Source of the DNA: Bacillota bacterium
GTDB lineage: Bacteria; Bacillota_I; Bacilli_A; RF39; UBA660
Length of the DNA stretch: 64,000 nucleotides
Assembly: GCA_021771185.1 (NCBI GenBank)
Contig: JAETPN010000001.1
Span: 130,366 to 194,365, forward strand
Reading direction: 5' to 3'
Every line of letters begins with the position of its first letter. Positions within the stretch are counted from its first letter, which is position 1. The translations under genes and the position numbers were made by a program. The notes below the pieces were generated by a model. The model was not told the origin of the DNA, made no database searches, and saw only the letters and a program-made list of their open reading frames with translations. Shown here in pieces: positions 24,648-48,972 of this stretch.

Positions 24648-24680
24648 TATAGTAAAGTTTTCATATTTATAGTATAATTT
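24648..24680 (+). promoter_or_regulatory. Shared promoter block, copy A (MATE gene)
   Basis: TATAGTAAAGTTTT, seven bases, then TATAGTATAATTT ending in a perfect TATAAT. It differs from copy B (42004-42036) at one of 33 positions and resembles copies C and D. The -35 position reads TAGTAA and not TTGACA, suggesting an activator or other binding factor. Confidence 0.7.
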
Positions 24681-24709
24681 TTAAAGAATTAACTAAATAG
24701 GTGGTACTT

Positions 24710-25888
24710 ATGAAAATTTTTATATCAATACTCATCAATTTCCTTTTTATGAGTATTGCAGATAGTATAGATTCAGCATTCAACAATTTAATCAGCCTTG
24801 ATGCCATTGTTGTTTGGGGAAGTTTTTTATTAATAGATTCTATTTTTAAATCATTTAGCGAAATAGGAACATATACCTATAGAACAACTAGAAAGAATGA
24901 ATGGTCCTATTTATGGTTTAATATTCTATTTGGATTATTGATAGGAATATTCGTATTTATATTTAGAAATGAAATCATAAAGATTTTCAGTCTTACTACT
25001 ATTCAAAGGGAAATGTTATCCTTTTTATTAAGTTTATATATTGGATATTTAGTACTAGGTAGATTAGCAAATTCCATCTTTGAAATTATGAGGTTAAAAG
25101 GAGAATTAAAACTCTATAGAAAAAGTTTAATCGTTTATTATATATGTTTAATTGGTTTGGATGCTATCGCATATGTTTCAACACATAATTTAATGTTCCT
25201 AGTATTAGCAACCTTAATTGCTTGGATGATATCAATTATTTATATGTTATATCATTTAAAACTAAAATTTGAATTACCTCATAAAGATACATTGAAAAAT
25301 GTAATGAACTATGGACTCCCCTATTCCATGGAAAGATTAATATCAAGAGTCTTTTTACTACTATACGGGAAATTAGCAAGTAATTTAGGAACAGAAAAAT
25401 ATTCCATTCATACGATTTGTTATGCAGTATGTTTAAGTTTAGAGATCATAACGAATGCATATCAAGCGGCATTAATGATCAGGGTACCAGAAGGTAAAAC
25501 ATATGAAGAACAATATAAAATTTGTATGGAAATGAGAAATAACTGTTTTGGTTTAATTATTCTTTTAAACTTTATATTCTCTTTTATATATTTGTTCATA
25601 TCTCATGGAAGCTTACCAATCGATAAATGCTTCCCCTACATCATCTTTTATTCCTTCGGTGTTTTTGGATTATATCCTTATGAAACATATAAAACATTAT
25701 GTATAACACAAGGTAAATCAACAATTTTACTTTTAGGTTCTACCATTGGTGTTATCATTAGATTTATCCTTTGCTTATTATTTATACATACCCCTTTTGC
25801 CTTATTTGTATTTGGATTATCAAACGGTATTGATTTTGGATCTAGAAGTATTATTTATAAAATGGTTTTATCAAAATCTAAATCATAG
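24710..25888 (+). CDS. MATE-like multidrug/polysaccharide-type transporter
   Basis: A 392-residue integral membrane protein with about 12 hydrophobic segments and the twofold repeat of MATE/MOP transporters. Start ATG 24710 behind TAGGTGG. Internal motifs include NYGLPYSMERLISRVFLLL, reminiscent of the second-half GxPxxxE pattern. Codon use is more AT-rich than in the preceding genes. A truncated copy of its 3' end lies at 27331-27376. The substrate is unknown. Confidence 0.8.
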   Translation: MKIFISILINFLFMSIADSIDSAFNNLISLDAIVVWGSFLLIDSIFKSFSEIGTYTYRTTRKNEWSYLWFNILFGLLIGIFVFIFRNEIIKIFSLTTIQREMLSFLLSLYIGYLVLGRLANSIFEIMRLKGELKLYRKSLIVYYICLIGLDAIAYVSTHNLMFLVLATLIAWMISIIYMLYHLKLKFELPHKDTLKNVMNYGLPYSMERLISRVFLLLYGKLASNLGTEKYSIHTICYAVCLSLEIITNAYQAALMIRVPEGKTYEEQYKICMEMRNNCFGLIILLNFIFSFIYLFISHGSLPIDKCFPYIIFYSFGVFGLYPYETYKTLCITQGKSTILLLGSTIGVIIRFILCLLFIHTPFALFVFGLSNGIDFGSRSIIYKMVLSKSKS

Positions 25889-25915: not shown

Positions 25916-26041
25916 ATGGAAGAAAATAATTTATCAACAAGAGATACAGAAAAGAAATATGGAATTCATCATTCTCTTGTTGATAAATGAAGAAGTTTAG
26001 AAAAAGGAGAAGTAATAAATGAACAAGAATATAAAAGATAA
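25916..26041 (+). pseudogene. Transposase-like helix-turn-helix remnant
   Basis: Reads MEENNLSTRDTEKKYGIHHS, then LVDK, a TGA stop, then RSLEKGEVINEQEYKR. With TGG in place of TGA the text fits the HTH of IS3-type OrfA proteins (KKYGI...LVxKWR). The stop codon is where the conserved tryptophan normally is. No terminal repeats or remaining transposase are visible. A 16-bp inverted repeat (25929-25944 and 25973-25988) overlaps it. It may be a chance match, as only about 40 codons are left. Confidence 0.4.
25929..25988. repeat. 16-bp perfect inverted repeat with 28-bp spacing
   Basis: ATTTATCAACAAGAGA and its exact complement TCTCTTGTTGATAAAT flank 28 bp between the MATE and MFS genes. There is no T run behind it, so it is not a simple terminator; it could be an mRNA processing or stability hairpin, or a recombination site. 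Confidence 0.6.
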
Positions 26042-27239
26042 GATCGAATTAAGTAATAAAATATATCCCTATTTTGCTGGACTATCTGATGATTTAATGT
26101 TTTGGGCTGCCATTAATACAATTTTTTTAACAACAGTCAAAAATCTTACAGCATCTCAAATAAGTCTTTTATCCGCTATTGCTACTTTTTCTACCATTAT
26201 ATTACAAGGAATAGCATTTAAAATAATCAAAAAAATAGGAAATATCACTTCTGTTAGATTGGGTCTTGTTTTATTACTAACTGCAGCTATCATTATTACA
26301 TTTTCAAATAATATACTTTGCATTGGCTTTGGTTACATAATTTATCATTCAGCATTCTTTTTTACAAATATGCAAAATGTTATATTAAAAAGAAATTTAA
26401 AGGCTGTTGGTAAAGAAAATACGTTTCATAAAGTTTGTAGTAAAACTAGTTTTATATATGCAATACTTACGATGATCGTTTCTTTTGTTGCCGGATTTAT
26501 TTTTAACATAAATAACTATTTACCTATGATTTTATGTATTATGATATGTGTATTAAATATCTTTTTATCAAGTTTTATATATGAGTATAAATACGAAAAT
26601 GATGAAAGTGTTAATCACAAAAGAAAAATTCATTGGAAAAAAATATTAATATTAATTATTGTTGTATATGGATTATTGTATGCAACAGTCGAAACGTTAC
26701 AAGAAACCGGAAAAATATTTATTCAATATAATTTTCAAAATTTTATTGAGATGGATAAAGTAACAGTATATCTTACTATAATCATAGCTTTTTCACGAAT
26801 CGCAAGAGTAATTTCAAATATATTATTTAATAAAATGTATTCAAAATTAAAAAATAAATTAATTATCTTTTTAAATCTATTATTATTCTTATCTGTTATA
26901 TTAATGCTTATTGGAAATATTATTACAAACAATATTTTTAGTGGTGTTATTATGGGAACTGGTTTCTGCTTATTACTATTTGTTAGAGATCCAATCATGA
27001 CCTTTACAAAAACTGAATTATTGAATAATTGTAATGTGGAAGATCAAGAAAATATTATGCATAAATTTAATTTAAGCAGAAAAATAGTAAGATGTATTTT
27101 AGCATCATTAGTTAGCTTATTACTTTTAAAAATAAAAATGGTTATTATTATGTGGTTATTAGCAATTATAATAATTCTATGTTTTATATTAACATTTAAT
27201 TTATCTAAAGAATTATATATAGCAAAAACAAATGATTAA
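26019..27239 (+). CDS. MFS transporter
   Basis: A 406-residue membrane protein with about 12 hydrophobic segments. The first half contains ITSVRLGLVLLLTAAIII, and the loop between segments 2 and 3 is basic, as in the major facilitator superfamily. It is probably an exporter, as in the other half of this pair-type locus (MATE plus MFS). Start ATG 26019 behind AAAAAGGAG. Strongly AT-rich. It may be cotranscribed with the MATE gene 130 bp upstream, since no terminator is obvious between them. Confidence 0.75.
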   Translation: MNKNIKDKIELSNKIYPYFAGLSDDLMFWAAINTIFLTTVKNLTASQISLLSAIATFSTIILQGIAFKIIKKIGNITSVRLGLVLLLTAAIIITFSNNILCIGFGYIIYHSAFFFTNMQNVILKRNLKAVGKENTFHKVCSKTSFIYAILTMIVSFVAGFIFNINNYLPMILCIMICVLNIFLSSFIYEYKYENDESVNHKRKIHWKKILILIIVVYGLLYATVETLQETGKIFIQYNFQNFIEMDKVTVYLTIIIAFSRIARVISNILFNKMYSKLKNKLIIFLNLLLFLSVILMLIGNIITNNIFSGVIMGTGFCLLLFVRDPIMTFTKTELLNNCNVEDQENIMHKFNLSRKIVRCILASLVSLLLLKIKMVIIMWLLAIIIILCFILTFNLSKELYIAKTND

Positions 27240-27254
27240 ATTATTTAAAATCTA

Positions 27255-27376
27255 CATCAAAAATATAAGTTTTATTCTATATATTATCGTAGATTTCATA
27301 TGAACCAATCAATAAAAGATATCAAATGAAGTATTTGGTATTGATTTTGGAGCTAGAAGTATTATTTATAAAATGG
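27255..27376 (+). pseudogene. Fused remnants of UDG-like and MATE gene 3' ends
   Basis: Bases 27255-27328 match the 3' part of the UDG-like gene (28155-28242), sharing TATAAGTTTT, TATATATTAT and CAATAxAAGATAT but with an internal deletion. Bases 27331-27376 match the MATE 3' end (25809-25866), including TTTATAAAATGG, with a 12-bp deletion. Both frames are broken. They show that copies of these genes were here before and were lost. Confidence 0.7.
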
Positions 27377-27614
27377 ATTCTTAAAGAAAAACAAATTAAA
27401 AGATGCTTAGAATGAATTGAACTCTAAAAGCATCTTTTTCTTTAACCATTGAACTCTTAAGTTTATTCCATGAATATTTTAATTTTATCTCAGTTATCTC
27501 GAAATTCAATATTAATATAAAATGATATAAAGTATTTTGTATTTTTTAAACTTATCAAATTTTCAAATATTACTACTTATACATTTTATGATAAAATATT
27601 ATCAGGTGGTTGTA
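27377..27614. other. Intergenic stretch before the UDG-like gene
   Basis: Contains the terminator at 27397-27439, then AT-rich sequence without a recognisable gene. A weak promoter-like TATGATAAAAT occurs about 20 bp before the UDG ribosome site. Confidence 0.5.
27397..27439 (+). terminator. Terminator after the gene remnants
   Basis: AAAAGATGCTT/AAGCATCTTTT stem with a 19-nt loop and T tract. Confidence 0.75.
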
Positions 27615-28325
27615 GTGAAATTAGAAGATTTAAATATAAAATATGATAAATTGCAAAAAAAGTATGGTGCAAAAGAATTAAATTCTATATATAATGGTGG
27701 TTGTAAAGATAATCCTAACATTTGTTTTGTCTTTATGAATCCAACGGGAAGAAATATTGCTTCATCAAAAGATTGGAATGGGATAAAATCACCTTGGATC
27801 GGAACTAAAAATATTTGGGATTTATTCTATGCTGTAGATTTATTAGATGAAAAAATTTATAACAAAATTAGAGCTATAAAAGGCCGTGAATGGACAGAAG
27901 AATTTGCAAGTGAAGTTTACTCTGACGTTGAAAAACATAAATATTTCATAACAAATCTTGGTAAATGTACACAACTAGATGCTAGACCATTACCAGACAC
28001 AGTATATAAAGAATATCTACATTTATTAGAAAAAGAATTTGAAATTATAAATCCAAAAGTGATTGTATTATTTGGAAATCAGGTAAGTTCTATTGTATTA
28101 AATGAAAAAATTTCTGTTTCTCAATGCAGAAAGAAAATGTTTGAAAAAGAAATCAATCATAAAAAATATAAGTTTTTCTCTATATATTATCCCGTAGGAA
28201 ATGGTAGATTTAATATTGATAAATCAATAGAAGATATTAAATGGATCATTGAAAATTTATCACTAGAAAATCAAGATGTTTTAAATAACGAAAAAGATAA
28301 AGAAAAAATTACATCAATATATTGA
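27615..28325 (+). CDS. Uracil-DNA glycosylase superfamily protein
   Basis: A 236-residue protein. The start is GTG 27615 behind AGGTGG; the frame upstream of it has no ribosome site. Pattern of the UDG fold: ICFVFMNPTGRN (motif 1 loop), a WIGTKNIWDLFYAV segment, ITNLGKCTQ (motif 2 region), PKVIVLFGNQVSSIVL and YYPVGNGRFNIDKS (motif 3 region). Closer to UDG families 4-5 or uncharacterised members than to Ung. It might excise damaged bases or be a nucleotide-binding relative; catalysis is not shown. It is within the AT-rich island and has a partial copy at 27255. Confidence 0.7.
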   Translation: MKLEDLNIKYDKLQKKYGAKELNSIYNGGCKDNPNICFVFMNPTGRNIASSKDWNGIKSPWIGTKNIWDLFYAVDLLDEKIYNKIRAIKGREWTEEFASEVYSDVEKHKYFITNLGKCTQLDARPLPDTVYKEYLHLLEKEFEIINPKVIVLFGNQVSSIVLNEKISVSQCRKKMFEKEINHKKYKFFSIYYPVGNGRFNIDKSIEDIKWIIENLSLENQDVLNNEKDKEKITSIY

Positions 28326-30862: not shown

Positions 30863-31135
30863 CTATAGATTTTTAATATAGTCTTGTAATTCACTGATTT
30901 TAATACATTTTTGTAAGTTTTCAATAAAAATATTTTTGCTATGATTAAAAGCTAGGAAAGTTCTATCTTTAATTATTATTTTATTTGGTTCAACATAATT
31001 GATATTAGTTTTTTCAACTCTACGAATAGAACCATTAATAATCGTTGCTTTAACATTATTATAATCACATATAAATTCAATTCTTGTTTTCAGATCTTCA
31101 TCAATTGGGACTTCATTAGTAATAATATTTAACAT
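30863..31135 (-). CDS. Unknown small protein
   Basis: A 90-residue protein that I cannot assign. It is mixed alpha/beta with MLNIITNEVPIDEDLKTRIEF at the start and ISELQDYIKNL at the end. It follows the replication-like gene by 15 bp, with AAAGGAAA before the start. Its genes for neighbours look like mobile-element leftovers, so it was probably part of the same element. Confidence 0.55.
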   Translation of the reverse strand: MLNIITNEVPIDEDLKTRIEFICDYNNVKATIINGSIRRVEKTNINYVEPNKIIIKDRTFLAFNHSKNIFIENLQKCIKISELQDYIKNL

Positions 31136-31525: not shown

Positions 31526-31599
31526 TGGAGCGGATGATGAGAATCGAACTCACGTAGTCAGCTTGGAAGGCTGAGGTTCTACCATTAAACTACATCCGC
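31526..31599 (-). tRNA. tRNA-Gly(TCC)
   Basis: Cloverleaf on the minus strand: acceptor GCGGATG/CATCCGC, anticodon loop CTTCCAA (anticodon TCC), T arm with GTTCGATTC, discriminator T and encoded CCA (31528-31526). The neighbouring recombinase and replication-like fragments suggest it may have served as an integration target; no second copy of its 3' end is visible in the window. Confidence 0.95.
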
Positions 31600-40331: not shown

Positions 40332-40516
40332 ATGCCAATTTATCTTATTTCAATTATTTTATATCCTTTATATAAATCTCATACCTTTTCGAAATTTCAC
40401 ATTGTTTTCCTTATCTTTATTTTGAAAATTCAAATAAATTCATCCATAAAGCGATTAAATAACTGCTTCTTTTTATAAAAAAACTAGAAAGTTTATATAG
40501 TAAATTCTTAAGAATC

Positions 40517-40549
40517 ATATAGGAAATTTTGTTGTTTTATAGTATAATT
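40517..40549 (+). promoter_or_regulatory. Shared promoter block, copy C (kinase-HD operon)
   Basis: TATAGGAAATTTTG then TTTTATAGTATAATT; the last 15 bases are identical to copies A, B and D, the first part is variable. Confidence 0.65.
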
Positions 40550-40576
40550 AATTAATAAGAAAGGATGAGCCTATTT

Positions 40577-41152
40577 ATGAAAAATATTGCTATATTTGGT
40601 ACTTCAAGATCTGGAAAGTCTACCCTTTCTAAAATGATTTATAAAAAATATCCCAATTATCATATTATCATTGGAGATGACATTAGATGGGCCTTTCAAC
40701 AAATTTTACCAGCTAACAATATTAGCAGTAAAGGTGGAAGTGGAATGATCGAAGATTTTCCTAATTTTCTAGCCTGCTTATTTTATAAAAGTATAAAAAG
40801 AAATAAAGGAGAAATTAATTATATCATCGAGACTTGTGATATGACACCTAAAAAAGCATATGAACTATTTAGTAACGATGATACTGTTTTGTTATTTTTA
40901 GGTACTCCCCGTTTAAGTGTTCAAGATCACTTTAACGAAATCAGAAAATTTGAAACTGAAAGGGATTGGACGTATGGTTGTGATGATGAGTATATGCTAA
41001 ATCATTGTGAACATTGGATTAATAAGAGTAAAGAATATGAAGCGGAATGCAAAAAATTAAATATTTGGTATGTTGATACTTCTTTCAACAGAGAAAATGT
41101 ATTAAAGAAAACTTTGGATCAAATAGAACAAAATATATTAGATAATGAATAG
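40577..41152 (+). CDS. P-loop kinase-like protein
   Basis: A 191-residue protein from ATG 40577 behind AAAGGATG. Walker A is FGTSRSGKSTLSK at residues 6-18, followed by IIIGDDIRWAF, typical of zeta-toxin and nucleoside-kinase folds with a catalytic Asp. The later IIETCDMTPKKAYELF and VLLFLGTPRLSVQDHFNEIR fit the lid region. The substrate is unknown. It shares an operon with the HD protein 11 bp downstream; the pair is AT-rich and in the second island. Confidence 0.8.
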   Translation: MKNIAIFGTSRSGKSTLSKMIYKKYPNYHIIIGDDIRWAFQQILPANNISSKGGSGMIEDFPNFLACLFYKSIKRNKGEINYIIETCDMTPKKAYELFSNDDTVLLFLGTPRLSVQDHFNEIRKFETERDWTYGCDDEYMLNHCEHWINKSKEYEAECKKLNIWYVDTSFNRENVLKKTLDQIEQNILDNE

Positions 41153-41163
41153 GAGAAAAAACG

Positions 41164-41817
41164 ATGAATGATATTAATTTAGAAAACATTTTTAATAATT
41201 GTATAGAATATACAAATAAAATAAAGAATAATAATTTAAGGGACTGTTGTAAGAAAATATTATTAGATCAAAAAGATAAACTAATGAATAAACCTGCTAC
41301 TACTGGAACACACCATTATTTTAAAGGTGGTTTACTATATCACACCTATTGTGTAGCAAGAAATGCGATTGCTATCATTGAATTATATCCAAATTTAAAT
41401 ATAGATTCTGACTTAGTTATATTTGGTGCATTATTACATGACATTGGAAAAAGCAAGAATTACACTGACTGGAGTGATAGATCTGAATATAGATGTAATG
41501 GTTCAAAACTTTTAGGTCATTCATATGAAGGTACACATTTAGTTGAAAATTATTTATCAGAATATGAATTAGATGAAGCATTTAAAAATCAAGTTTTACA
41601 TATGATCGGTAGTCATATGAATGAATTTAGTGATTATGGTACCCTTGTTTTACCTAAAATGTTAGAAGTAATTATAATTAGTTTTGCTGATAATATTGAT
41701 GCCACACTAGAACCCGCGCATAATGTAATAACTGAGGCAAAAAAAGGGTCAAATTATAAAATTGGTAATGCACCTAGAGATTATTATAAATCTTTAAATC
41801 CAGAATATCATAAATAA
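41164..41817 (+). CDS. HD-domain protein related to YhaM 3'-5' exoribonuclease
   Basis: A 217-residue protein. HYFKGGLLYHTYCVARNAIA, ALLHDIGKSKNY, LGHSYEGTHLVENYL, MIGSHM and FADNIDATL give the HD metal ligands in the order seen in YhaM/CBF1. YhaM carries an N-terminal OB domain (protein of about 310 residues); here it is missing, so RNA binding may differ. It is the second gene of the unit behind copy C of the shared promoter. Nuclease activity is inferred. Confidence 0.8.
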   Translation: MNDINLENIFNNCIEYTNKIKNNNLRDCCKKILLDQKDKLMNKPATTGTHHYFKGGLLYHTYCVARNAIAIIELYPNLNIDSDLVIFGALLHDIGKSKNYTDWSDRSEYRCNGSKLLGHSYEGTHLVENYLSEYELDEAFKNQVLHMIGSHMNEFSDYGTLVLPKMLEVIIISFADNIDATLEPAHNVITEAKKGSNYKIGNAPRDYYKSLNPEYHK

Positions 41818-41852: not shown

Positions 41853-41891
41853 TAAAAGACAATACAAACTTAAATATTGTCTTTTCTTTTT
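41853..41891 (+). terminator. Terminator of the kinase-HD operon
   Basis: AAAAGACAATA/TATTGTCTTTT stem with T-rich tail. The stem and 30 bp beyond it are repeated after the MATE gene at 43253. Confidence 0.8.
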
Positions 41892-41892
41892 A

Positions 41893-41925
41893 GTTAAAAT
41901 AGACATTATTTTTGATATTTATCAC
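41893..41925 (-). pseudogene. 3' remnant of the gene now at 43300
   Basis: GTTAAAATAgACATTATTTTTGATATTT-type sequence (two short differences) equals bases 43287-43315 that encode the last codons (KYQK, stop) of the 151-residue gene. Only the 3' end is left here, so a copy of that gene was once in this spot. Confidence 0.5.
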
Positions 41926-42003: not shown

Positions 42004-42036
42004 TATAGTAAAATTTTCATATTTATAGTATAATTT
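42004..42036 (+). promoter_or_regulatory. Shared promoter block, copy B (second MATE gene)
   Basis: TATAGTAAAATTTT, seven bases, TATAGTATAATTT; one mismatch to copy A 17 kb away although the downstream genes are only distantly related. Confidence 0.7.
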
Positions 42037-42062: not shown

Positions 42063-43268
42063 ATGATGAAAAGATTATTAAGAATTGGTTTTGATTTATC
42101 CTTATTATCATTTATTCCTATTTTATCCTGGTTTTTATTAGGAATCACAGTGGATAAAAATTTAATCAATATATTCACATTAACTTATCCCCTACAATTT
42201 ATATATTATATAATTAAATCAGTATTTTCAACAGGTGCTAATATAAATAAAGAAAAAGACAACAATGATGACGCTGTAATGTCTGGTTTTATTATAGGAA
42301 GTGTTTTTTCAACTATTATATTTTCTATCGTTATACTTAATATTGAAAATTATATTCGTTTTATGAATATGGATATAACTACATATAAAACATTTGCAAT
42401 ATATTCCGTTTTAAATCTATATGTATGTTTAGAGTTTGCAATGATATTAGATAAACTATATTATGAAGAAAAAAATGAATTAGCTAATAAGTATTCAATT
42501 GTTTTCAATTTATTAAACTTTATACTTTTAATTGGAACATCTCTTATAACAAAAAATCAAGTTATTATTAGTAGTACCGCCTTACTTCCACTATTCTTAT
42601 TTACGATTTATATCATTATCAAAAATAGCGATAAATTTACATTAAAGTTAGATATATTAAAGTGCATTAAATATGATTCAGTAGAATTATTTAATAATAT
42701 TGCATTTTTTATGATATTTTTATTTGGCTTAAGTAATGCTTTAGAATTTGGAGAAAAATATGCACTTGCTTTAACTTTTGTCGCTCTTATTACTGATACA
42801 CAATGGGATACTGCAGATGCCATGGTTATAGCAGCTTCTATTGATATTAGTAAAAATAAATTTAATTATAAAATTCATAGAAATAATGCATATAAATTTT
42901 TAGGAGTATTATTTTTAACTAGTTTAGCAATGTTTGGAATACTATATAATTTTTATAATTTAGATTTTAAAATAACCATGATTTTCTTTTCCTTTGAAAT
43001 TGTTAATTTTATGATTTATCCGATTTATAGAATTAAAACTTGCTACCTTCAGTTAGAATGGTCTGCTTTTAAAATAACATCAAATAAGATTGTTGCTTCT
43101 ATTTTAAGAATGATAATGTCCTTACTGAAAACACCTTTTTGTACAGGTATTGGACAAGTTTGTTCCTCTGTATATCAATTTATTACAGTAAGTATCATTT
43201 TTAAAACAAATTATAAAATAGACAAAACAGGAATCGTAATTAAAAAAACAACAAAAGACAATGCTTAA
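42063..43268 (+). CDS. Second MATE-like membrane transporter
   Basis: A 401-residue protein with about 12 membrane segments and a tail rich in Lys/Thr. Start ATG 42063 or 42066 behind AACAGGAGG. TDTQWDTADAMVIAASIDIS is a conserved-looking central segment. It shares overall MATE/MOP topology with the 24710 gene, but sequence identity is low. The substrate is unknown; its shared promoter suggests joint control with the other cassette genes. Confidence 0.7.
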   Translation: MMKRLLRIGFDLSLLSFIPILSWFLLGITVDKNLINIFTLTYPLQFIYYIIKSVFSTGANINKEKDNNDDAVMSGFIIGSVFSTIIFSIVILNIENYIRFMNMDITTYKTFAIYSVLNLYVCLEFAMILDKLYYEEKNELANKYSIVFNLLNFILLIGTSLITKNQVIISSTALLPLFLFTIYIIIKNSDKFTLKLDILKCIKYDSVELFNNIAFFMIFLFGLSNALEFGEKYALALTFVALITDTQWDTADAMVIAASIDISKNKFNYKIHRNNAYKFLGVLFLTSLAMFGILYNFYNLDFKITMIFFSFEIVNFMIYPIYRIKTCYLQLEWSAFKITSNKIVASILRMIMSLLKTPFCTGIGQVCSSVYQFITVSIIFKTNYKIDKTGIVIKKTTKDNA

Positions 43269-43286
43269 TTTAACATTGTCTTTTTG
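43253..43286 (+). terminator. Terminator of the second MATE gene
   Basis: AAAAGACAATG/CATTGTCTTTT stem with T run; copy of the terminator at 41853. Confidence 0.8.
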
Positions 43287-43299
43287 GTTAAAATAAATA

Positions 43300-43755
43300 T
43301 TATTTTTGATATTTCATTTTCTTACAATCTTCATTAACTTTCACTGCAGTATTTATTTCATCTAATGCTAGTAACATACCAAATTTTGGAATTTTAGAAT
43401 TTTGATAATCTGGTAATACATCTGTAAGTTTTTCATAATCTACTATATATGGCAAATCAAAAAATTCCATTTCAGTTTTTGCAATAAAACCTGTAAATAC
43501 TTCTTTATATTTATGGTTTATCACACCTTCTATTTTTATAGGTTCAAAGATATAGAATTGATCAGTCTTAATACATATAGGACCAAAATCACAAGCATCA
43601 CTAGAAACATCACTAGAAACATATTCTAATTTGCCAATAACTAAATCTTCAGCATTAAAAACATCTTTCATCACATAATCTTTTTTCTCAAATTGACCTT
43701 CAACCTTTTTTTGTTCTTTTTCCTCTTTTTTCTTTTTTGGTAATATCCCCCACAT
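43300..43755 (-). CDS. Unknown soluble protein with a basic N-terminus
   Basis: A 151-residue protein. It starts MWGILPKKKKEEKEQKK and has no signal peptide; the core contains a short internal duplication (SSDVSSDA) and CDFGPICIK. No domain recognised. Convergent with the MATE gene. The 3' end of a second copy remains at 41893-41925. The start follows GAGG. Confidence 0.55.
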   Translation of the reverse strand: MWGILPKKKKEEKEQKKVEGQFEKKDYVMKDVFNAEDLVIGKLEYVSSDVSSDACDFGPICIKTDQFYIFEPIKIEGVINHKYKEVFTGFIAKTEMEFFDLPYIVDYEKLTDVLPDYQNSKIPKFGMLLALDEINTAVKVNEDCKKMKYQK

Positions 43756-44078
43756 AATTTAACCTCCTCAATTAATATAACAAAAAATATAAAATTTTTC
43801 AGTAATATTCTATCATAAATTTGACCAGATGTCTTAAAAAATCACAATATTTTAAAATTTATTTTAATCGTTTATTTAAACTTATATATACTTCAATGAT
43901 AATATGGCAAATTTTAGCGTTTTATAGTATAATTTATTTAGCTAAAATTCAAGAAGATAGTATTATTTACGATTATGTATTATCTTATGAGTTTGACGCT
44001 TGAATTTCAAAGTTATATTGGAGGTATTAAAAATTATTTAAAGAACAATGAATAAAAAAACAAAAAAAGGAGTAATTA
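43756..44078. other. Intergenic region with copy D of the shared promoter
   Basis: Contains copy D of the promoter block and a 5' leader of about 135 nt before the MFS gene. The leader has an isolated GGAGG at about 44021 with no good start codon, and an 11-codon frame (MNKKTKKGVINE) at 44048 whose stop overlaps the MFS start codon. Nothing else recognised. Confidence 0.5.
43903..43935 (+). promoter_or_regulatory. Shared promoter block, copy D (second MFS gene)
   Basis: TATGGCAAATTTTAGCG then TTTTATAGTATAATTT. The 3' 16 bases are identical to the other copies; the 5' part AAATTTT is close to copy C. Confidence 0.65.
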
Positions 44079-45257
44079 ATGAGTAAGATATGGAAAAAAA
44101 CAGAAAATAAAATATTAATTATACTATTATTATTTAGTATATCAATTGGTTTGTGGAATAATTTTAGACAATTGTGGATGCAAGATAATGGTTTAGCACC
44201 TACAGAAATAAGTAAAATATTAAGTTTTGGAACTCTTTTTTGCGTCGTTTGCATACTAATTTTTTCGAAATACATAAAGCTAGATAAAATTAAAAAATTC
44301 ATTTCTCTTGCCCTATTGATTAAAATAATAAACTTAATTATATTATTTTTTATAAATAACACAGCTTTAAATACATTAATTAATTTATCTATTATTATTG
44401 ATATAATTATAGAGCGATTAATAATTATTAGTATTTATCCACTAATTGTAACAATTAAAAAAAGCAATAATTTGTATAGCAAGAGAAAATTAGTAGAATA
44501 TACAGGTAGAGATTTAGGAGTTTTAATAGGCGGTTTTATCATCGGAAAAACTATATTTGGAATACTATTCAATTATAATTTATGCTTATTAATTTCTATT
44601 ATATTTTCTATCATATCATTGATCATTTTAGTTAATGTAAAAATACAAAACATTGAAACAAAAACTTCTAAAGAAAATATATTTAAATATGTTTTCACTA
44701 ATAAATTTAGACTTATGTATATTATATATTATTTAATTGGACAAATTGCATATTCAACTGCGCTAGGACTTAAAATGCTAACGTTAACAAATTATCTTAA
44801 TTTTTCAGATAGTGCTGCTACAAAATATTTTCTTGCTGTTGGAATTTTAGCTGATATAATTGGTATTATATGTTTGAAAAAATTTCAACCTAAAAGTGAT
44901 TATATTACAATTAGTATTAAATTCGGAATAAGATTTATTGGATATAGTTTAGCATTTTTATCTAATAACATTATCGTTGTAATATGTGCCATGACTTGGT
45001 CATTATTAATATCTACATCTTATGAAAATGTAACAGATGCTCCATATATTAATAGTATTACAAATGATAAACAATTAGCATACACAAATTTGAGATATAT
45101 GGTTGGATCATTAGGTGAATCAATAGGGACTTTCCTATGCGGATTAATGTATGCACAAGGACTTAAATACATGTTTGGCCTATCTGCAATTTTTATGCTG
45201 TTACAATTAACTCTTGCTTATATATTAATCTACCAAAGAAAAAAATTAAAAATATAA
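44079..45257 (+). CDS. Second MFS transporter
   Basis: A 392-residue membrane protein with about 12 segments. LWNNFRQLWMQDNGLAPTEI and GRDLGVLIGGFIIGKTIFG (motif in segment 5-like, with Asp-Gly-rich character) support a major facilitator exporter. Start ATG 44079 behind AAAAAGGAG. Like its counterpart at 26019 it accompanies a MATE gene. Ends in a basic tail and a terminator. Confidence 0.72.
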   Translation: MSKIWKKTENKILIILLLFSISIGLWNNFRQLWMQDNGLAPTEISKILSFGTLFCVVCILIFSKYIKLDKIKKFISLALLIKIINLIILFFINNTALNTLINLSIIIDIIIERLIIISIYPLIVTIKKSNNLYSKRKLVEYTGRDLGVLIGGFIIGKTIFGILFNYNLCLLISIIFSIISLIILVNVKIQNIETKTSKENIFKYVFTNKFRLMYIIYYLIGQIAYSTALGLKMLTLTNYLNFSDSAATKYFLAVGILADIIGIICLKKFQPKSDYITISIKFGIRFIGYSLAFLSNNIIVVICAMTWSLLISTSYENVTDAPYINSITNDKQLAYTNLRYMVGSLGESIGTFLCGLMYAQGLKYMFGLSAIFMLLQLTLAYILIYQRKKLKI

Positions 45258-45558
45258 CAAGGCAATGTAGATAATTTCTACACTGCTTTTTCTTTGCATT
45301 TTTAGTTTTGTAGGTTATATCAATAATATATTCTAAATGTTCAAGTTTAGTATAAATTTGTTCTTTAAGATGATTTTTTAGGATCATTCTTTATACTTAG
45401 TTTCTTGCACATTTCCACGATTTATTCATACAATAAAGTAAAAGGGTATTGAATTAAAACAAAATATTTGATATAATTTATGTACTGAAAGGTTCTACAT
45501 TAGTCTCCAAAACCGTTGGTGAGGGATAGTAATGATACTAGGGCCGTCAGAATACACG
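45258..45558. other. Intergenic stretch before tRNA-Cys
   Basis: Holds the MFS terminator, a TATAAT-type promoter near 45474 and an RNA-like segment at about 45488-45545 containing GTCTCCAAAACCGTTGG, which resembles a tRNA-Trp anticodon arm. A minus-strand frame at 45193-45387 crosses the terminator and is not believed. Confidence 0.4.
45259..45293 (+). terminator. Terminator of the second MFS gene
   Basis: GGCAATGTAG pairs with CTACACTGCT (one G-T), followed by TTTTTC. Confidence 0.7.
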
Positions 45559-45632
45559 GGTCTATAGCCAAGTGGTAAGGCATGGGACTGCAACTCCCTG
45601 ATCGTTGGTTCAAATCCGACTAGGCCCTCCAG
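45559..45632 (+). tRNA. tRNA-Cys(GCA)
   Basis: Acceptor GGGTCTA/TAGGCCC, anticodon loop CTGCAAC (anticodon GCA), T arm GGTTCAAATCC and encoded CCA at 45630-45632. Confidence 0.94.
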
Positions 45633-45714: not shown

Positions 45715-46033
45715 TTATTTTTTACGAGCAATAATTTCAATATTATATACATTTGCAATTTTAAGAAGTGTAGGAAGAGTGATTTGCCTAGTTCCTCCTT
45801 CGTAATGTTGAATACTTCTTGCTTTTCTACTTAGACTTTTCGCAAAATCTTCTTGAGTTTCTTCTGTCCATTCTCTAAAGATCTTTGTAATTTCTTTAGG
45901 TTCATAGTCATTTAATTTTAAAGTTGGAATATCTAGCACCACACTTTCTAAAATAAAATCTATATTTGAAATGATCACGTATTAATTGATATACTTTATC
46001 TTTATCTACTCCCACAATTGTTATTTTATTCAT
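45715..46033 (-). pseudogene. XRE-type antitoxin-like gene, probably frameshifted
   Basis: Two overlapping frames. The first, from ATG 46033 behind GGAGGGG, reads MNKITIVGVDKDKVYQLIRD and stops at 45908. The second, from a GTG at 45978 without a ribosome site, holds an XRE helix-turn-helix (REWTEETQEDFAKSLSRKAR ... YEGGTRQ) and ends at 45715. Joining them by one frameshift near 45975 gives a protein of about 105 residues with an ordinary start. The alternative is two overlapping genes with translational coupling. Confidence 0.5.
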
Positions 46034-48267: not shown

Positions 48268-48972
48268 ATGTTAAAGTGGTTAAAAATGTTGTTTAAAGAT
48301 TTTTATATTTTTACCGCAGCTTATTCGAATCAAGTATTCCCAGATCCCCTATCTAAAGAAGAAGAAGAAAAACTAGTAGAACAATTTCGTTTAGGTAATA
48401 AAGAGGCACGTAATCAATTAATTGAACACAATTTAAGACTCGTCGCACATATTGTAAAAAAATATGATCATCGCAGAGAAGACGCGGATGATTTAATTAG
48501 TATTGGAACGATTGGATTAATTAAGGGAATTGATAGTTATTCTAATCATCATCAAACAAGACTCACCACTTATTGTGCAAGATGTATCGAAAACGAAATT
48601 TTAATGTATTTTAGAACAGATAAAAAAAACAATAAAAATATTAGTATTAATGAAGGTGTTGGATTTGATAAGGAAGGAAATGAAATTACCATTCTAGATA
48701 TTTTAAAAACACCAAAACCAGATTTCGCTATGGATCTTCATCTTAAAAATAATATTAACTTGTTAAAAGATTATTTTAATGTTTTAACAGAACGAGAAAA
48801 ACTCATTATTACGAAACGTTATGGACTAAATAATCAAGATGAAATTACACAAAAGGAAATTGCCAAAGAACTTGGTATTTCTAGAAGCTATGTATCTCGT
48901 ATTGAAAAAAGAGCCTTAACAAAAATGCTTAGAGAATTTATAAAAAATAAGGACCACACATTTGATAACTAG
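48268..48972 (+). CDS. sigK: Sporulation sigma factor of the SigK type
   Basis: A 234-residue sigma-70 family protein. The first 20 residues are hydrophobic and aromatic (LKMLFKDFYIFTAAYSN) followed by FPDPLS, which fits the pro-sequence that is removed from SigK. Regions: NLRLVAHIVKKYDH (2.1-2.2), LISIGTIGLIKGIDSY (2.3), ARCIENEILMYFR (2.4), ITQKEIAKELGISRSYVSRI (4.2). It controls late mother-cell genes in sporulation. The gene is uninterrupted, without a skin-type element. Confidence 0.9.
   Translation: MLKWLKMLFKDFYIFTAAYSNQVFPDPLSKEEEEKLVEQFRLGNKEARNQLIEHNLRLVAHIVKKYDHRREDADDLISIGTIGLIKGIDSYSNHHQTRLTTYCARCIENEILMYFRTDKKNNKNISINEGVGFDKEGNEITILDILKTPKPDFAMDLHLKNNINLLKDYFNVLTEREKLIITKRYGLNNQDEITQKEIAKELGISRSYVSRIEKRALTKMLREFIKNKDHTFDN

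Follow-up and report, generated by a model that had tools for sequence, protein, structure and literature searches.

Why should four transcription units in two separate, foreign-looking islands, with genes for MATE-like and MFS-like transporters and a kinase-HD pair, be headed by almost the same piece of DNA? In the window, that is, the whole stretch of 64,000 nucleotides analysed here, the consensus TATRGNAAANTTTN5TTTATAGTATAATT has four ungapped 32-bp copies, all on the plus strand. Copy A (24648..24679; TATAGTAAA-N11-TATAGTATAAT) precedes a MATE-like transporter gene and copy B (40518..40549; TATAGGAAA-N11-TATAGTATAAT) the kinase-HD pair, both with 0 mismatches to the consensus. Copy C (42004..42035; TATAGTAAA-N11-TATAGTATAAT) precedes the gene of a MATE-like membrane protein, and copy D (43903..43934; TATGGCAAA-N11-TATAGTATAAT) an MFS-like gene. 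An earlier note on this DNA had listed copies at 24648, 40517, 42004 and 43903; all of them are present, copy B starting one base later than given. The identical ending that it ascribed to the four copies is TTTATAGTATAATT, found at the 3' end of A–D. The near-identity that it saw despite unlike genes is real as well, for the copies at 24648 and 42004 (A and C) agree at 31 of 32 positions and the proteins encoded behind them align weakly (BLASTP E = 0.001 over 17 residues). Identity in the flanks of A and C (18/40 positions in the 40 bp upstream, 9/25 in the 25 bp downstream) is at about chance level for this base composition. Because flanks and proteins are so unlike, an origin of these two regions by paralogous duplication was rejected.

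Chance, or simple convergence in AT-rich DNA, would be the most trivial answer, and -10 boxes are indeed common in a window with 28.7% G+C. However, with up to three mismatches allowed the window holds four matches against 0 in 100 dinucleotide shuffles, the same search of the 1.24-Mb genome returns copies A–D only and 0 matches for the reversed pattern, and the spacing within the block is fixed across 193 genomes of the family. Shuffle, reversed-control and spacing tests together refute this reading, whose probability we regard as negligible. The genome-wide motif work consisted of pattern searches and fetched stretches. Taken by itself, the 14-mer TTTATAGTATAATT occurs once more in the genome, as a fifth exact copy whose -35 region is an ordinary TTGCTT. 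It is therefore the upstream box, on the -35 side, that is the distinctive part.

The block itself looks like a complete core promoter, with its -10 hexamer TATAAT within TATAGTATAAT and an atypical -35 hexamer, TRGNAA. TATAAT matches the -10 hexamer at 6/6 positions in all four copies. The hexamer TRGNAA lies 17 bp upstream of it, inside TATRGNAAA, as TAGTAA (A), TAGGAA (B), TAGTAA (C) and TGGCAA (D), with about 3/6 matches to TTGACA; a -35 region other than TTGACA, as the earlier note had proposed, is thus seen in all four copies. From the end of TATAAT to the start codon of an ORF on the same strand there are 31 (A), 28 (B), approximately 33 (C) and 145 nt (D). The block resembles sigma-A (RpoD) core promoters with a non-consensus -35 in its TATAAT, in the 17-bp spacing to the upstream hexamer and, for three of the four copies, in the 28–33 nt to the start codon, but it departs from them in having TRGNAA instead of TTGACA and TATAG before the -10, both conserved across genera. 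Outside the window the AAANTTT part is less conserved, and the conserved core is TATRGNAAA-N11-TATAGTATAAT. When 1–30 bp were allowed between TATAGNAAA and TATAGTATAAT in a gapped search of 193 same-family genomes, the gap was exactly 11 bp in 41 of the 48 matches. Canonical sigma-A -35 elements carry T at position 2. Here this position is A or G nearly everywhere and T in 1 of 97 sites, although the scarcity of T is partly a selection effect of the pattern by which the sites were collected. A PlcR/Rgg-like palindrome, which we take to be TATGNAAN4TTNCATA, is similar to A and C and was rejected, B and D being non-palindromic. The claim of a promoter block has thus gained substance: the block is specific, rare and constrained in position, and it has the geometry of a core promoter.

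Across the family, the block has two main homes. With up to two mismatches the fuller motif occurs in 65 of the 193 genomes, at about 75 sites, whereas the reversed control gives 2, and recU lies downstream of 35 of 79 sites from the motif search. Where recU promoters were chosen by protein similarity alone, 15/21 have the motif and 18/21 an exact TATAGTATAAT, and the link to recU is therefore no artefact of the motif search. The recU-ponA operon serves DNA repair and the cell wall, and in the genome studied here its promoter carries the motif with one mismatch. In gene order and in the position of the promoter upstream of recU, the family operon matches the recU-ponA/pbp2 operon of Gram-positives, in which recU is followed by a penicillin-binding protein gene (PMC3584850); it differs in that its promoter is of the two-box type and usually comes with a Spo0A-type box. 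A scan of approximately 85,000 named genomes gave 11 exact matches, all in uncultured Bacilli, Tenericutes, Mollicutes or Clostridia assemblies: six recU-ponA promoters and five promoters of accessory operons, including L224, where the end of the locus truncates the genes downstream of the block and the assignment follows from a leader that matches that of L227. Viral contigs contained no exact match to the motif, and a phage origin of the block was rejected on this ground. Some sites other than recU precede single housekeeping genes (cdaA, ftsA, pyk and ackA, named by sequence). The earlier note had been ready to give up its functional system if the motif stood before many unrelated genes as the ordinary promoter of the species. 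At the family level unrelated genes do largely follow it, but the motif is rare and so is not an ordinary promoter.

In its second home the block is the promoter before the cargo of mobile elements. Locus L176 has the motif promoter pointing away from an ORF of 101 aa and from a large serine recombinase that is intact at 612 aa; on the far side of a conserved structured end block follows TnpV (PF14198, E=3.9e-29). Two such element units stand in tandem in L187, where the recombinase is truncated, as it is in L185. The loci L221 and L227 share an identical 32-bp block with different cargo behind it and have a TnpV homologue near each. Cargo in the relatives, some of it named by eye from the sequence, includes DUF1016/YhcG nuclease, ASCH, HD, NUDIX, GNAT and beta-lactamase-like proteins and ABC and MFS transporters. 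Upstream of the block, a divergent-promoter signature (the reverse complement of a -35, TTGAAA or similar) is found at 22/44 non-recU sites versus 1/35 recU sites, and reading of the sequences places a divergent TTGAAA-N17-TATAAT promoter within conserved element leaders. These leaders end in TGGAGC and a terminator-like hairpin, like the 3' ends of tRNA-Gly in these genomes.

Several features of these loci deserve mention in their own right. The conserved divergent leader upstream of motif sites (L176, L185, L187, L189, L190 and others) possibly encodes a short RNA, which would end in ...CGCTCCA and a terminator, as tRNA-Gly 3' ends do; a search for the leader as a small RNA family in Rfam yielded no match at gathering score, and the weaker matches did not exceed chance. 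A structured block, GGGTATGGGAATTCCCATA..GAATTTATGCGGGAGTATAAATTCAGTGCTGGCTAGACA, follows the cargo in L176, L177, L183, L184, L187 and L190 and is a candidate element end or RNA. Integron-like cassettes with attC were considered and rejected, the 'swapped cargo' in L193 being an internal deletion of a DUF1016 gene.

Elements of this general kind are known. Tn4451-type elements with TnpX and TnpV have been described, and the elements in the relatives share a large serine recombinase, TnpV and accessory cargo with the Tn4451/Tn4453 family, whose members are integrative mobilisable elements, and with Tn6104 of C. difficile (PMC3158075). In contrast to these, no mobilisation gene was noticed beside the units that were read, the cargo follows a promoter that stays the same and has a divergent leader, and the window has no recombinase. 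A further likeness is to the staphylococcal cassette chromosome, also a cargo-carrying island, for the serine recombinase found in the relatives has its best NCBIfam matches in CcrB and CcrC. This recombinase scores far below the CcrB cut-off, however (140 vs 900 bits), and the islands here lie near tRNA genes, not rlmH. The position of the block within a conserved element leader, together with the TGGAGC and terminator-like hairpin common to leaders and tRNA-Gly 3' ends, might also mean that block or leader owes its conservation to a role as recombination site of the element and resembles a promoter incidentally. We consider this very unlikely, because recU has the block without any element leader and because the block lies at promoter distance from start codons with ribosome-binding sites.

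In the window, the first island extends from copy A to a tRNA-Gly(TCC) gene on the minus strand (31526..31599), which forms its border. Behind copy A lies the 395-aa ORF of the MATE-like transporter (24701..25888, plus strand, with a likelier start at 24710; TIGR00797 E=5.5e-8, below cut-off), of which a 60% identical homologue was found by tblastn beside a motif-bearing cargo operon of the relative G162 (L180). There follow, on the plus strand, an MFS-type transporter gene (26019..27239; PF07690 E=4.8e-8, just below cut-off), gene debris consisting of a UDG-like 3' fragment and then a MATE 3'-end fragment (27255..27380; repeats D2 and D4), and a gene for a protein like family-4 uracil-DNA glycosylases (27537..28325; PF03167 E=1.8e-7), with homologues close to motif sites in G019 (78% identical) and G024 (69%). 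On the minus strand, a 90-aa ORF (30863..31135) is homologous to the small ORF that accompanies the large serine recombinase in the elements (tblastn 36% identity, E=4e-15).

The second island comprises copies B–D up to a tRNA-Cys(GCA) gene on the plus strand (45558..45631), and its genes are likewise on the plus strand. Copy B is followed by genes for a P-loop kinase-like protein (40565..41152, likely start 40577; weak P-loop matches only) and an HD-domain protein (41164..41817; PF01966 E=3.4e-13) that is like the HD part of YhaM (PRK13480 E=9e-24, below cut-off); for this pair (40577-41817), with its weak family matches, no homologue was found in the fetched loci of relatives. The MATE-like membrane protein behind copy C (42063..43268) has no Pfam or NCBIfam match and is found in 11/193 family genomes. 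A 78% identical copy resides in a TnpV-bearing locus of G006, and its homologues elsewhere mostly have no motif; the promoter therefore does not travel with this gene alone. The MFS-like transporter gene behind copy D (44079..45257) matches PF12832 only, at E=0.023. Terminator-like repeats, 75% identical (41856-41920 and 43250-43314; AGACAAT..ATTGTCT and GTTAAAATA), are located behind the HD gene and behind the MATE-like gene. In G002, of the same genus, the place of the second island, between a ZIP-like gene and tRNA-Cys, is taken by one different gene, and the flanks are conserved. The minus strand right after tRNA-Cys has a short ORF of HTH (Xre-like) type (45715-45978), possibly a further island remnant. 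In PADLOC the window cargo matched nothing convincingly, and a defence system was rejected as its function.

Near copies A–D, neither a recombinase nor TnpV had a match in the window, and for this reason we can only infer that A–D originated from elements. A feature of TnpX/TnpV-type elements that does occur in the window is the small ORF at 30863-31135. Upstream of copy B, on the minus strand, a candidate remnant of an element leader (40440..40480; TCATCCATAAAGCGATTAAATAACTGCTTCTTTTTATAA on the plus strand), compared by eye and with MAFFT to TGGAGCGATTAAGCAACAGCTTACGAAC...TCTCTTTCTAAAAA in relatives, bears a weak likeness to these leaders and may be a decayed one. Most likely, copies A–D are cargo promoters left in degraded islands beside tRNA-Gly and tRNA-Cys; these promoters would descend from element backbones and might be active.

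What, then, reads the block? The earlier note had suggested a common regulator or sigma factor, and a specific shared block is compatible with such a common factor. A candidate is encoded 3 kb from the second island, a SigK-type sporulation sigma factor (48268-48972; PRK05803, 305.9 bits vs a cut-off of 252), whose gene adjoins a LytR-like gene. Moreover, TATAGTATA resembles the SigE/SigK -10 CATAnnnTA. SigK/E-like proteins occur in 172/193 family genomes. However, no such protein was found at E<=1e-40 in G060 (97% complete) or G085 (96%), and yet both have the exact core motif at recU; a SigK/SigE-like reader is therefore scarcely credible.

Control by Spo0A, which would place the four units in the sporulation-entry regulon, finds its argument at recU. 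There, an exact TTCGACA/TGTCGAA (0A box) lies within 130 bp upstream of the motif promoter in 33/49 cases, with 0.003 expected per site, and the spo0A gene of the genome studied here has TTCGACAAAACTAGA and the motif with one mismatch. The same box is found at 0/48 non-recU sites, however, and within 200 bp of copies A–D there is none; in G060 the recU motif persists although the box, SigK and, at the threshold used, Spo0A are all missing. For the block as such, and for the four units, we therefore judge Spo0A control very improbable. The recU-ponA operon is a separate matter. Its TTCGACA box usually has the form TTCGACAAAACTAG, an extended Spo0A-type box seen at recU-ponA and spo0A promoters (recU, L039-L172; spo0A, L235-L264; own genome, C17:268008) and absent at recU in G060 and G085, both without SigK/E. 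This distribution suggests that recU-ponA is under Spo0A control. Mixed sporulation gene content has been reported for the order RF39 (PMC10868615).

With SigK/SigE and Spo0A disfavoured, sigma-A with an atypical -35 remains the favoured reader of the block, and its action may involve a weak, activator-friendly -35. A dedicated host regulator, or an alternative sigma factor outside sporulation, that recognises both boxes and co-regulates recU-ponA and mobile cargo would account for the exact 11-bp spacer and for the A or G that takes the place of T in the -35 hexamer both at recU and in the elements, an agreement that a separate reader also predicts. The two boxes form a direct repeat of TATAG 20 bp apart, about two helical turns. 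TTGACA-type promoters nearby tend to have TGn and not TATAG before TATAAT (only 19 sites), and similar [TC]NTAGNAA-type boxes are present at several spo0A promoters. However, box 2 is no more than a perfect -10 at the expected distance, the first box varies between A and G whereas the second is constant, unlike two equal half-sites, the motif stands at occasional housekeeping genes, and no candidate regulator emerged. We therefore think such a factor unlikely, though it deserves serious consideration; that a dedicated host factor reads TATRGNAAA-N11-TATAGTATAAT and that elements copied this promoter, so that their cargo is switched on with recU-ponA, appears to us a little less plausible again.

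The best explanation, and in our view a fairly probable one, is that the block is a two-box core promoter read by sigma-A, the housekeeping sigma factor of the family, which serves the host operon recU-ponA and the cargo of mobile elements, and that A–D are such cargo promoters in degraded islands. Elements of the type seen in several relatives, which have a large serine recombinase, TnpV and a small ORF pointing away from the cargo, would exchange that cargo but retain the promoter, in many cases together with a divergent promoter of sigma-A type immediately upstream. Against this explanation stands that about half of the non-recU sites have no divergent-promoter signature. That the MATE, MFS, kinase and HD genes make up a functional system, as the earlier note had proposed, finds no support: the same block precedes recU-ponA and unrelated accessory genes in relatives, and from one genome to another the cargo behind an identical 32-bp block can differ. 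The block is shared because of mobile cargo and recU, not because these genes form a pathway.

The two boxes with their exact 11-bp gap thus provide a sequence handle for the cargo of serine-recombinase islands, a little-studied family, in uncultured gut Bacilli. They also call for caution, as shared promoters do not imply shared pathways where the genes are mobile cargo, and they raise a testable question: why the host operon recU-ponA and mobile cargo have one rare core promoter in common.
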